This document shows, in pieces, positions 3,736 through 52,476 of a stretch of 64,000 nt of DNA (the stretch's first letter is position 1; every line of letters starts with the position of its first letter). This DNA is from Notamacropus eugenii (lineage: Eukaryota; Chordata; Mammalia; Diprotodontia; Macropodidae): contig NC_092879.1 of assembly GCF_028372415.1 (NCBI RefSeq), positions 97,655,067 through 97,719,066 of the forward strand, written 5' to 3'. A model generated the notes under the pieces. It was not told where the DNA came from, did not search any database, and saw only the letters and a program-made list of their open reading frames with translations. The position numbers were made by a program, and so were the translations under genes.

Positions 3736-5921
3736 CCTTCAACAGCACCCCCACATGACATGACTCTCCATCATGATCACCCTCCACTGGCCATACACCA
3801 GTGGGTCAGGGTCCTTCCTAAATTTAGACCTCAGAGGCAAGCCCAACCTCCAAACACAGCAGGGGACAGGAAGGCTCACACCCCTCAGCCTGAACCCTCC
3901 AACTCACTTCAGGGTTGTCCAAGATGGGATGTCTTTGCTGACAGCCACATCACACCATGGTGACTCCTCTTGGGCTTGGAGTCAAGTCAAACCCCAGAAC
4001 CCTGCACTCAGACCACTATCTACTCATGTTTTCCCCATCCCAGATTTGTGAAGTGACAGGTTTTAACCACCCCCAATCAACCTCAAATTTTTCCTCAGTG
4101 GACTCCATCTTATTCAATTCAGCCTGTTGACATGTTTGGGGATCCTGACTATGTTACCCCTGTGTGTGAGTGACCTCTTCCTCCCAGCTCCGGGTCCTCT
4201 GTTCACTGGAGGAGCCTGCTGCCACCTCCACTTCTCTGTGATAGAGACTCCCACTAACTGATAGCCAAGCCCAGATCCCGAGGTACTTCATGGGCACTGA
4301 CTTCACCCAAGTTGTCATCGAACCTGTCTGGTCTTTCCAAAAGCTCCAAAGCCACGTCAATGTACAATCATCTTTGGGCAGCCCATCCCACCCTGGGACA
4401 GCTCTCCTTGTTAGAAACTGTTCTCCTTACATCGTCTGAATCTGCTTCCCCCATCCCCCCAAGTTCTCCCTGGCCTTCTTCCCACCTCCCCACCTCAGAA
4501 GAAACCCCCTCCCTCCCCCACAGGACAGCCTTTCCCATACCACCAAGCACAGAGGCTACAGACCACCACGTTTCCTCAGCCTCCTCTCTCAGTCCTCCCT
4601 CATAGGCCCCCCATCCTTCTGTCCCCAGCCCCCCCATCCCTTCCCCCTCCCCCAATGGCCCTCTGCTCCAACCTCCCACACACATCACTGAAGCAGCCTG
4701 GATGCCCCCCAACTGGCCCCATGACACTCACCCCTTGGTACCTGGCCACTTATTTGATTTAAGGTTGTCACATCTTGAAGCTTTTTTATGCCATGGAAGT
4801 GAAAGTTTCCATTACACACACTCACACACACAATCACACACTCCTACTCACAAACACACAAACACACACACACACACACTCACACACACAATCACACATA
4901 CACACACCTGCTTTCAGGTACGAGGGACCCAGAGGTCCCCTTCTGACCCTGACTTGCCCCATGCCCCTAACCAGAGGTGGCCAAGGGCCCAAGGAGCTCC
5001 CCAGAGTGGGGGCTCCTGCTCAGGCCCATTGGGCTAAGGGCTCCTTCTGCTCCTTCTCCCACATTCCTCCCTCCTGCACTCATGGTCCCAGGTCCTCGGT
5101 GCTGTCCCCCCTAGGAGTCTGAATCAACAACCAAGTGCTCAGTGGAAATAGCTCCCAGAGCTAAAGGATCCAGACAAGATTTGAGGGTGGTGAGGGTGGA
5201 GCAGGCCTTGCAAAGGCTTCCCTCATAGCAGACAGCTGGTCTGAGGCCTGCAGAAAAAGGCAGCTCAAGGGGGAGAGGATGTGGGGCCAGATCCTTGAGA
5301 TCAAAGCTGGGCCTGGGAAGAGGAGCAGGCACCTGATGGTATCACCTGGCTCGAGGGCAATGCTTCAGCCAAGACTTGGCCCCTGCAGGCTGCTTCCCTG
5401 AAGCAAAGACCCCACATCCCTGCCTGGTTAGGGCTTTACCCAAGAGAGCCTGGCCAGGGTGACTGAGTGTGAGAGAGCCACTGAGGCCAGTGCCCAGGCC
5501 AGCCCCTGCTACCTCATCTTACCTGGCCCCAGGGGCACTTGGCTGCTTTGCCCAACAAGGCCTTCAAAGATGGAGACTCCTCCTAACTCCAGGCTGTCCC
5601 CCCTCCTCCCCAACAGCCCCCCTTTAAAAAACAAAACGGCAAAAGGTGCAATTTACTTTCCTTTAATTATCAACTGAATAAAAGTGTCAAAGTTAAAAAA
5701 GCAGAACTACTGAGCTTTTACTCTGTCTCCTGGGAGACTTGCAAGAAGTGGGAAAGCATGAAGGGCAGAGGGTGGGCAGCTAAGAGGCCTGGAGTGACTA
5801 AGACAGAGGACAGAGGGGAGCACATGCTCAGAGACCAAAGGAGGGACCTGGTGGGGCTGGCCCTGGTCCTGCTGCCTGGATCTTCAGGGTCCTCTTCCTC
5901 CTCCAGGGGAGCCCTCCTAAG
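3736..5921 (-). repeat. Left arm of a 2.19-kb inverted repeat (3' flank of G1)
   Basis: This segment is the near-exact reverse complement of 39060-41246; paired positions sum to 44981-44982. By eye only isolated substitutions separate the arms, for example 'caaaacggc' here against 'caaaatggc' in the other copy. The arm begins within two bases of the G1 stop codon and carries that gene's 3' untranslated region, an ATTAAA poly(A) signal and a (CA)n tract (4815-4910). The spacer is about 33 kb. It looks like an inverted duplication kept uniform by recent origin or gene conversion. Confidence 0.95.
5662..5667 (-). terminator. Poly(A) signal of G1 (ATTAAA)
   Basis: ATTAAA on the minus strand, about 250 bases past the G1 stop codon. 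It is preserved at the matching place behind G3 (39314-39319). Only a signal variant is present; no minus-strand AATAAA lies in this stretch. Confidence 0.55.
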
Positions 5922-6227
5922 CTTGGTTCCCACCGGCTGCCCCATCATTCTCCACCTCGGCCTCCTGGCTCATCTTAGCTTTCTTCGGGATTCTCTCGTC
6001 CAGCTCCTGCTCTGCAACCTTGGTCCTCACCATCTCCCGGAACCTGGCTGGTTCTTTCATGAACTTTTCCAGGTGATCCAGCAGGGCATCCACTTTCTGC
6101 TTAATGTGCACAAACTCCTGCTTCACATTCTGGGGATCATCATTTTTGAATTGGGATGACTTGGGCAACTGACTTGGCTGACCACTCTCAAAAGGAAAGT
6201 CAACTTTGGCTCCATCGGACATGTTGT
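5917..6227 (-). CDS. G1 exon 2: RRM-less hnRNP C/RALY-type zipper protein
   Basis: The last exon of a minus-strand family member starts after a 'tctattatcag' acceptor and ends at TAG (5919-5917). In phase 1 it reads (D)NMSDGAKVDF..., then QNVKQEFVHIKQKVDALLDH, an approximately 28-residue amphipathic zipper close to hnRNP C ([20 protein letters not shown]). A charged tail with PKKAK and an acidic stretch follows, ending GGNQA. The hnRNP C zipper mediates tetramer formation and, with the basic residues before it, RNA binding; no RRM is present here. From the conserved ATG at 6222 the exon alone gives about 100 residues. The ending Asn-Gln-Ala-stop matches Asn-Gln-Val-Ala-stop in G4. Function is inferred only from the zipper: probably a nuclear RNA-binding or hetero-oligomerising protein. 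A pseudogene is possible, but the frame, acceptor and zipper are intact. Confidence 0.68.
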
Positions 6228-7346
6228 CTGATAATAGATAATAATAATGATCGTTACAAACATACCCCCAAAGTAACATGGTGAACAAACAGATGGTAAT
6301 AGACCTGGCTGATCACTGTGGCCCAAGGCTCAGGCTATTGGCCACACTGACGTAGCTATCGCATGGACTGGTACATCTTGAAAGGTTTTTCACAATCTAT
6401 CACCATGCTGAATACTGTACTCAGCAACTCTAAACTATATGGGATGAAATGCTTTCAAACTGTAAAGACATTACAGAAGACATTAAACCATGTAGTTCCT
6501 GGACAAGGTGCATATGTGGCATCCCTGCTCTGTTTGCTGCATGCATAGGAAACAGAAGTGTTCAGACCATGAGCAAAGGGACAGAGCCTCTATCCTAGTC
6601 CTTTGTTCAATGACCAAATGACTGTCTCTTTGTCTACCTGCAAGACATTTGCAAGGCACTGAACTTAACAGCTAACATGTACAGCTCTCTCTGTGTCTGT
6701 CTCTTTGCTTCTGTCTGTCTGTCTCTCTCCCCCTCTATCTCCTCTCTCTGTCTCCTGCTTTTTTCCATTTTTCTAAATTCATTCAAGCTTGTCAAGCAAA
6801 GAAGGTGGGGTGAGTTTTCTTCCCTGCCTCCGTACCCATAGTCCCACTGTGGGGCAGCCCTCCTTCTTCTCCCTTGGGCTCCTCTCCAGGCCTTGTAGCT
6901 GCTGGCTCCAACCTGACTCTTGCTCCTTTGGTCCTCCCTGTGCAGGCCACCTGAGTCATCTGCCTAAAGCCTGGCTCTGGGACTCAGCCAGTCCTTCCCC
7001 CACCAGGGCCCAGCACTGCCTCCCCATTACCCACCATGGCCCCCCATCTATACTTCTTTGGTTGTCTCTCAAGGTCCTCCAAAAGCTGACAGTCCTTTGA
7101 GGACTATTACATAGTAAAAAAGAACCCTGGATTTGGAAGCAGACAAAGGAGCTGCCCTTTGAGTTTCATTTCCTTCGAGGAGCCAACAAGGGAGGGAGAG
7201 GGCTGCTATCTTCACCAAGGAAGCCTGAACTTGAGGATAACCAGAAGCTAGCAGGGGGAATTATGGAAAAGGAATAAGGTGGGGTTTTCAATTCAATTCA
7301 ATTCTTCTGTACTGGAAGAGGGTTAGAACTGCCTGCCAGGGTCTGT
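6228..7346 (-). other. G1 intron segment, homologous to the G2 intron
   Basis: On the minus strand, about 7090 down to 6685 aligns well (roughly 85% by eye) with G2 intron positions 21930-22320, sharing 'ggcctgcacagggaggacca' and 'gaggcagggaagaaaactca'. The shared intron shows that G1 and G2 descend from one gene with the same intron position. It also shows that the G1 first exon must lie at higher coordinates. A CT-rich simple tract occupies 6685-6757. The part nearest exon 2 has no recognisable content. Confidence 0.7.
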
Positions 7347-51502: not shown

Positions 51503-52033
51503 GTAAATGAGTAGGGTGTGGGGAGGAACACCCTCAGGCCTGAATCCTCATTTTAAAGAAAGAAGGGAAGGAGGGAGAGAGAGGCAGAGAGAGACAGAGA
51601 GAGAGAGAAAGAGACAGAGACACAGAGAGAGAGATAGAGAGAGACAGAGAGAGAGATTGAAGGGACATGATAGGAGGTAGTATGAGGACTTGGGTTTGAG
51701 TTGGAGGCTCTGCTACTTCCTTACCTTTAGCTACATAGGGCAAGCCAGCAAGTCTGGGTTTCAGTTTCCCCATCTGGAAAAGTGAAAAAGTTTGACTTTT
51801 TGAGTGAGTGGTCTCTAGGGAACCCTTCTGGTGCCAATGGTGTGATTCAGGAGAGGTTAATGTAGGTCCCTATCTGCCAATGGTGGGAATCAGGAGGACC
51901 CCCACCTCCCCATCTCCTTCAGTGTGTGTGTGGGGTGGGAGGGCCAGGTGAGCACCTGGATGGAAGGAAGGGGCACTGTGGCCCTTAAAGCCCCCAGGGA
52001 AATATCAGTCCTTGTCACTCTGCTTACTTTCAG

Positions 52034-52476
52034 GCAGCTCCAAGGGCAAGGGCAAAGGGTTCTCTGGAGCCAAGGGTGGGCAGCGAGGCCCTAACCCCAA
52101 GTTGTCCAAAGGGAAGGACGAAGATCACCAGGGCATCCGGAAAGATCTGGCGAAGATTGAGCAGAAGGTGGATATGTTGCTGGAGAAGATGGATCAGTTT
52201 ACCAAAGTGGCTGAACTCCTGCCACTGGCAGCTGCAGCTGAGGAAGAGAAAAAGAAGGCCCCAGGGCAGGAGCAGCCCCCACAGCAGGCTCAACCTCCCC
52301 CTGTGCCACAGCTGCCAGCCCAGCAGCAGCAGGTGTTGGTGCCCCAGCAGGTGGTGCTATCCCAGCAACAGGTGGTGCCTCAGGGTGGCAAAGGTCAGAA
52401 GAGGGCCAAGGGGGGTGTGAAGGCAGCTGCAGCAGCTGAGCTTGGCAGTGGTGGGGGCACCACCAAATCTACTTAG
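52034..52476 (+). CDS. G5 exon 2: basic-zipper domain plus Gln-rich tail
   Basis: A close paralogue of G2 exon 2: a basic GSSKGKGKGFSGAKGGQRG start, zipper IRKDLAKIEQKVDMLLEKMD, Ala/Glu/Lys stretch, Gln/Pro/Val tail with fewer repeat units than G2, and the same AELGSGGGTTKST end. Acceptor 'cttactttcag', phase 1. In the alignable part I count about six amino-acid-changing differences from G2 (for example Lys to Gln in the zipper, Gly-Pro to Glu-Leu after it, Arg to Leu in the tail) and one silent one. The 1.8 kb downstream shows about one difference. Role inferred as for G2. Confidence 0.78.

Follow-up and report, generated by a model that had tools for sequence, protein, structure and literature searches.

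A 64,000-nucleotide stretch of the genome of Notamacropus eugenii (hereafter the window; positions 97,655,067-97,719,066 of the 103-Mb contig NC_092879.1, here C25) holds part of a cluster of loci that carry the zipper segment of the RNA-binding protein hnRNP C and no RNA-recognition motif (RRM). Comparison with HNRNPC strongly supports the descent of these exons from the 3' half of a reverse-transcribed HNRNPC mRNA, the exon beginning at a splice acceptor that was already present in the parental coding sequence. A preliminary description of the window had reported five loci (G1-G5) as a clustered family of RRM-less hnRNP C/RALY-type basic-zipper proteins; the nature of the exon, a retro-copied HNRNPC fragment that lacks introns and is spliced at an acceptor that existed beforehand, had not been recognised. 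The zipper strings reported for G1-G4 are present (Table 1), G5 is a near copy of G2, and the clustering is borne out, with ten loci (G0-G5, L005, L006, L010 and a partial, frame-shifted 104-kb copy) extending past the window on both sides. Genome searches covered an assembly of 3.445 Gb in 254 contigs, and regional searches covered 264 kb (the window and 100 kb on either side); coordinates are those of the window unless a contig is named, and a caret marks an exon boundary.

Descent of the zipper exon from HNRNPC

In a phmmer search of six members against the PDB (177,635 sequences), the entry for the hnRNP C oligomerisation helix (1txp) ranked first for four: G1 (E = 0.0025), L006 (0.0058), L010 (0.0066) and G2 (0.35, its sole match up to E = 5). 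For G4, many of whose other matches arise through a Gly-rich tail, 1txp ranked 26th of 47 (E = 0.72), and for G3 it was absent. The host hnRNP C protein was read from two processed copies (on C14 and C1) and split at the codons V-S-G; its C-terminal half matches nine loci in the 264 kb at E of at most 1.3e-7, each match starting at residue 1-6 (L010 5e-20, L005/L006 8e-18, G4 3e-16, G1 4e-13, G5 1e-10, G3 1e-9, G2 3e-9, partial copy 1e-7), while the reversed C-terminal half reaches a best E of 0.014. The RRM half finds only proline runs in the same 264 kb (best E = 0.019) and no RRM remnant, so that the reported absence of the RRM stands. Figures for both halves were obtained with masking and composition correction switched off; with default settings only L005/L006 (2.8e-5) and L010 (1.2e-4) fall below 0.01. 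A comparison with random coiled coils had been set beforehand as decisive for the kinship, and by the rank of 1txp and the reversed control the family zippers are better than random. A chance coiled coil is ruled out by the PDB rank, the reversed-sequence control and the genome-wide matches together.

The HNRNPC gene itself lies on C24, where an exon ends ...KSGQRGSSSKSGK / ...RVSGNTSRRGKSGFNSKSGQRGSSSKSGK (AAAT^GTATGT) and the next exon encodes the zipper (KGDDLQ...EQSKQT), closed by GTAAAT. L006 and L010 run in one frame through both of the HNRNPC junctions that flank the zipper (C-half alignments 1-93 and 1-98), the parental introns being absent. At the codon where the family exon starts, HNRNPC reads CGTGTATCAGGAAACACTTCC (GTATCAG^GA, codons V-S-G), a ready-made splice acceptor. 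All ten acceptors (nine loci with G4 counted twice and G0 left out) start the exon at this same HNRNPC codon, a position assigned by resemblance only for the third exon of G4; the junction letters are CAG^G in nine and CAG^A in G1, and the preceding TATCAG survives at four loci (G1, L005, L006 and the partial copy). Downstream of several members, sequence from beyond the HNRNPC stop codon gives short, weak matches (E = 0.005-0.2) in the correct orientation. Past the stop and in another frame lie the stretches LEEEEDPED (G1, G3) and LEEEDTED (G4), which we take to be what is left of the beginning of the acidic tail (LLDDDDNEDR in hnRNP C).

The kinship had been reported as one with hnRNP C and RALY together, and the two can be separated. 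Outside the cluster, the best genome match is a processed HNRNPC copy for L006 (4e-10), L010 (1.2e-10) and G4 (7.4e-6), against 0.82, 0.065 and 0.11, respectively, for the RALY-type exon in the same searches; the zipper exon of the HNRNPC gene scores 0.058, 2.7e-5 and 0.18. G1 has its own processed copy and then HNRNPC copies (4.7e-7) as its best non-cluster matches. Over 25 zipper residues, seven of seven members score the hnRNP C helix above the RALY-type helix (BLOSUM62), and L006 retains RWGKSGFCSKSGQR of hnRNP C. For RALY there is the zipper context of G4 (KLKASEL), which we take to be RALY-like, and the comparison of G4 exon with exon, a near tie that slightly favours the RALY-type (0.11 against 0.18). 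RALY parentage is nevertheless ruled out by the ranking of HNRNPC copies (3/3) and the zipper scores (7/7), leaving RALY or RALYL as parent with next to no probability; the hnRNP C part of the reported kinship holds and the RALY part falls. A DNA-level duplication of HNRNPC with later intron loss, in place of reverse transcription, is very improbable: two introns are missing at parental junctions, and four other processed HNRNPC copies are among the places found, although no search was made for a founder poly(A) tail or target-site duplication, only the secondary copy on C4 described below having been examined for them.

A processed copy of G1

The splicing of G1 is recorded in DNA. An autosomal locus on C4 (352.295 Mb, minus strand) matches 8753-8664 (93% over 90 bp), continues without a gap into a match to 6229-5640 (77%) and closes with ten A. 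A 13-bp target-site duplication, which possibly includes two of these A, lies on either side of the locus. The exon 1 region of G1 occurs at only two places in 3.45 Gb, G1 itself and directly before the C4 copy of exon 2, where the match stops at the donor. Exon 1 was therefore joined to exon 2 (8664 to 6227) in the copied message, and the phase-1 first intron of the preliminary description is real for this locus; the true 5' end of exon 1 may lie further upstream than 8753. The message of G1, or of a very close relative, was spliced, polyadenylated and copied back into the genome in the germ line or early embryo, which implies past transcription of G1 there. Since two in-frame stops interrupt the C4 copy and its divergence from G1 amounts to dS 0.245 and dN 0.134, the spliced structure is not recent.

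The copied exon 1 has a single ATG, preceded by three in-frame stops before ATGGACCAAG, so the predicted G1 protein starts MDQ-DNMSDGAKV (106 amino acids) or at the next Met, and the leader contributes MDQ only. An acidic leader as a rule of the family, as had been described, is thereby ruled out for G1; candidate acidic leaders stand at G2 and G3, and G5 offers no in-frame upstream ATG.

Proposed origin

The homology, the missing RRM, the intronless fusion of parental exons, the common acceptor position and a G1 message that was spliced, polyadenylated and carried into the germ line are documented, and the following history is strongly supported. An HNRNPC mRNA was reverse-transcribed into the X chromosome near DCX, where the 3' half of the insert came to serve as terminal exon of a new gene through the acceptor sequence already in HNRNPC, a new upstream exon giving the start codon. 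The RRM half turned into intron and decayed, or was lacking from a 5'-truncated insert, and the unit then spread by duplication, both tandem and inverted, and by conversion. A precedent exists in human retrogenes, in which splice sites silent in the parent become active, according to an excerpt of PMC3565874.

Zipper face, charge and selection

Relative to hnRNP C, the members have dS of 1.1-1.75 where finite and dN of 0.37-0.53. At nine core positions of the zipper, hydrophobic residues are found nine times in G4 and L010, eight in G1, G2 and G5, seven in L006 and five in G3, whose zipper is weak. In neutral simulations with matched change, covering six members, the share of runs that reached the core score with an open frame was 0.024 for G4, 0.061 for G2, 0.076 for L010, 0.149 for G1, 0.295 for L006 and 0.30 for G3; these shares are not independent because the members are related. 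Inside the reading frame G2 and G5 differ by two indels, of lengths 6 and 27, each divisible by three; of five indels in their aligned flanks, a single one is. The net charge before the zipper is +6 in hnRNP C, +8 in G3, +7 in G4, +5 in G5, +2 in L006 and -3 in both G1 and L010; the tail of L010 carries -13 and that of G4 +22 if exon 3 is joined. The comparison suggests that some members have retained the basic segment and others have lost it, the hydrophobic face of the zipper being mostly kept, so that "basic", proposed as a trait of the family, fits G3, G4 and G5 (+5 to +8) and fails for G1 and L010.

Possible function and alternatives

According to excerpts of the review PMC8994388, hnRNP C owes its high-affinity RNA binding and its oligomerisation mainly to residues 140-214, and mutation of the zipper (CLZ) lowers its affinity. 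The family exon begins just past the nuclear localisation signal PSKRQRV, which is named in the same excerpts. The intact members (L005/L006, G1, G2, G4, G5 and L010) are predicted to encode proteins of about 100-250 amino acids that would be free-standing hnRNP C zipper segments. The zipper would let them enter oligomers of hnRNP C or RALY, and the resulting assemblies, with fewer RRMs, would bind nascent transcripts differently in the expressing cells, probably germ cells. Translation, hetero-oligomer formation, tissue and effect are parts of this proposal that we infer. Taken as one explanation, retro-origin together with RRM-less intact members that enter hnRNP C/RALY assemblies is reasonably probable. 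Entry into these oligomers is favoured over packaging of RNA, also suggested earlier, because the zipper face is common to the intact members. A bolder extension, in which an X-linked, germline-expressed, zipper-only hnRNP C family poisons or retunes hnRNP C assemblies and diverges by duplication and conversion as a result of conflict about how germ cells process RNA (in sex-chromosome silencing or retroelement exonisation, for example), is speculative and doubtful.

Several observations weigh against retro-derived proteins that join hnRNP C assemblies. A genome search with the whole G2 exon returned, at E of at most 0.001, G2 and G5 only, HNRNPC being missing. Selection tests on single members are weak (G2/G5 dN 0.030 and dS 0.059 on 16 changes, and the values given above for G1 and its copy), and identity to hnRNP C in L006, L010, G4 and G1 is not significantly higher in the zipper than before it (57/100 against 57/124, p = 0.11). 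The L006 zipper terminates in Ala-Pro, the leader exons of G2, G3, G4 and G5 are candidates proposed from sequence, and there is decay within the cluster, namely the broken relics G0 and the 104-kb copy and the two early stops of G3.

The cluster might instead consist mostly of neutral, decaying copies that are at times transcribed and yield no selected protein product. Such decay, dN/dS near 0.5 in both pairs on few changes and a zipper not significantly better kept than its flank are all compatible with neutrality; on balance, this alternative is rather unlikely. Against it, seven exon 2 frames are open (L005, L006, G1, G2, G4, G5 and L010) despite dS of about 1.1-1.75 from HNRNPC, whereas three of four autosomal HNRNPC copies, not matched in age, have stops in the matched stretch; the in-frame indels of G2/G5, the hydrophobicity of the zipper core and a leader-end motif common to four loci point the same way. 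The proteins might also be independent RNA- or DNA-binding basic coiled-coil proteins, acting in packaging or as chaperones with no need of hnRNP C. The zipper segment of hnRNP C as main determinant of high-affinity RNA binding (PMC8994388, as excerpted), the Lys-rich character of G2, G3, G4 and G5 and the strongly positive G4 tail would suit such a role, but charge-driven binding of nucleic acid is unlikely to be shared by the family, because G1 and L010 are at -3 before the zipper and the L010 tail at -13; an independent function of this kind is on balance improbable.

Genomic setting and members of the cluster

The ten loci span 114 kb (C25:97,651,586-97,765,714) and adjoin DCX, as two frames in the right flank with a doublecortin domain (Pfam, 1.2e-15 and 9.8e-12) are read; a left-flank frame with MKSVFVTVGTTSFDELITCVSS, in which Pfam named nothing, is presumably ALG13. 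HPRT1 has five exon-sized matches on C25, all at 56.42-56.44 Mb, and its longest matches are unspliced copies on other contigs. Because of these five matches and of DCX beside the cluster, C25 is taken as the X chromosome, probably the marsupial X. Four of the unspliced HPRT1-like copies (C1:538304198, C15:94889592, C15:94974859 and C15:111083561) are nearly full-length and free of stops, and 86-93% identical to human HPRT1.

A genome-wide search with the G1 exon found 13 places: cluster members inside and outside the window, the processed G1 copy on C4 and what we take to be HNRNPC relatives and a RALY-type exon. The processed HNRNPC copy at C14:189111964 (L008) still has an open RRM half (a frame of 225 residues).

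Within the cluster, inverted blocks are 99.5-99.7% alike and tandem blocks 94.9-99.3%. The inverted arms that hold L005 and L006 are 99.74% alike, and the tandem blocks in which G2 and G5 sit agree at 99.3% and 94.9%. G1 and G3 have 2.2 kb downstream in common (99.5%, in opposite orientation), and G3 and L010 have 0.9 kb in common up to the start of exon 2 (99.2%); the family members are mosaics. A block of 3-4 kb in three copies 98-99% alike (17191-21328, 31154-34166 and 46918-51055) stops short of the candidate start ATG by 169 bp in G2, 146 bp in G3 and 378 bp in G5; it may be a homogenised promoter region that was kept uniform while the coding exons diverged. A 382-bp element, 87% identical, lies upstream of exon 2 in G1 (6688-7067) and G2 (21928-22301) and is either shared intron or an interspersed repeat; because of the latter possibility this match was left out of the evidence.

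Candidate leader exons are listed in Table 1. G1, G2, G3 and G5 have in common a leader end ATGGA...AAG^GTAA(A)TG, and L005 has a candidate leader, ATGGCCTTCAAAG^GTAAGTG, about 2.3 kb upstream. G2 and G3 also have CTTTGAAATCATGAGTGGA in common at an upstream ATG, a candidate start that opens acidic leaders of 52 and 62 residues. A genome-wide search for a processed copy of the G2 leader found none, the leader occurring at only one place in the genome, and no leader was identified for L010 or L006. The design of two exons described earlier is shared; however, G3 is cut short by two stops, and G4 probably has three coding exons. The last of these (G4b) resembles a second copy of exon 2 from which the zipper is missing. 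It matches hnRNP C itself weakly (E = 0.11), and the start of the family 3' untranslated region (UTR) comes after it.

Table 1. Loci of the zipper family and their exons (window coordinates; CDS, coding sequence)
Feature	Position	Strand	Evidence and remarks
L005	-3187 (outside window)	minus	genome search; open exon 2 frame
G1 exon 1	8664..8753	minus	5'UTR and ATGGACCAAG; start codon 8673; donor GTAAATG from 8663; as in processed copy
G1 exon 2	5640..6227	minus	CDS to 5920; stop TAG 5917-5919; 3'UTR to poly(A) site near 5640; zipper 6073-6126
G0 (decayed exon 2 relic)	16544..16780	+	tblastn with L006 exon, 1e-6 in 264 kb
G2 candidate leader exon	21588..21744	+	MSGDLPKV...EGMDPQ; ends ATGGATCCCCAAG^GTAATGG; open frame, donor, shared motif
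G2 exon 2	22681..23153	+	Lys/Gly-rich; zipper 22788-22841; Gln/Pro/Val tail; stop 23154-23156
G3 candidate leader exon	34312..34498	+	MSGIFQGKK...QDMDIK; ends ATGGACATCAAAG^GTAAATGG; open frame, donor, shared motif
G3 exon 2	38790..38989	+	zipper 38894-38947; cut short by stops at 38990 and 38996
G4 candidate leader exon	41760..41985	+	MGEALRITG...SKTE; open frame and donor only
G4 exon 2	44757..45032	+	zipper 44858-44905; donor GAAG^GTACAG
G4 probable exon 3 (G4b)	45527..45777	+	Lys-rich; acceptor TTGACAG^GC and frame; stop 45778-45780
G5 candidate leader exon end	51493..51502	+	ATGGAGAAAG^GTAAATG; matches G1 leader with its donor over 45 bp (E = 0.014, 264 kb searched)
G5 exon 2	52034..52473	+	near copy of G2; stop 52474-52476
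L010	86722-87021 (outside window)		family exon 2, open frame
Partial copy (104-kb copy)	104391-104507 (outside window)		frame-shifted
L006	110355-110648 (outside window)		family exon 2, open frame

The window has 47.4% G+C and an observed/expected CpG ratio of 0.098. An Rfam scan of the window gave no match, and a Pfam scan of six family frames named no family above its curated cut-off. Fragments at 26548-27289 and 61480-63316 are repeated at both places and presumably belong to LINE-1, with residues at 62837-63316 that we take to be ORF2-like; Pfam did not name them. A degenerate AC/AT-rich simple repeat of 450 bp (42676-43141) is open in several frames.

Comparison with known systems

Transcripts from across the genome are acted on by hnRNP C. 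A natural family that retains the hnRNP C assembly helix and lacks the RNA-recognition domain would amount to a set of in vivo modulators of hnRNP C, and would show how a retrocopy can yield a dominant-negative-like relative of an essential gene through a splice acceptor dormant in that gene. The case also illustrates how a fossil in DNA can stand in for RNA as a record of the splicing of a candidate gene. Among the literature matches listed, there is no description of an RRM-less hnRNP C family.

The closest system is the zipper segment of hnRNP C itself (bZLM/CLZ), which the family resembles in its match to the 1txp helix and in sequence, over a span that opens just beyond the nuclear localisation signal, includes the zipper and runs in the direction of the acidic tail. 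The family differs in having neither the RRM nor the PSKRQRV signal, in its new first exon, in being X-linked and multicopy, in the loss of the basic segment from some members and in the acidic tail, the start of which lies out of frame past the stop in G1, G3 and G4. HNRNPCL1-4, the hnRNP C-like retrogenes of primates, are likewise retro-derived, multicopy relatives of HNRNPC, but they keep the RRM and have a single exon, whereas the family described here uses the 3' half only and its gene is spliced. SPANX, SSX and CT45 are X-linked multicopy germline families and share with it X linkage, short, fast-diverging proteins and tandem and inverted copies; unlike them, it is traceable to a housekeeping RNA-binding gene. 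With the intron-containing retrogenes, as far as these are described in the excerpt of PMC3565874, it has in common a splice site silent in the parent and active in the retrocopy, and it differs from them in that its site drops the whole RRM half and that the result was multiplied into a cluster.

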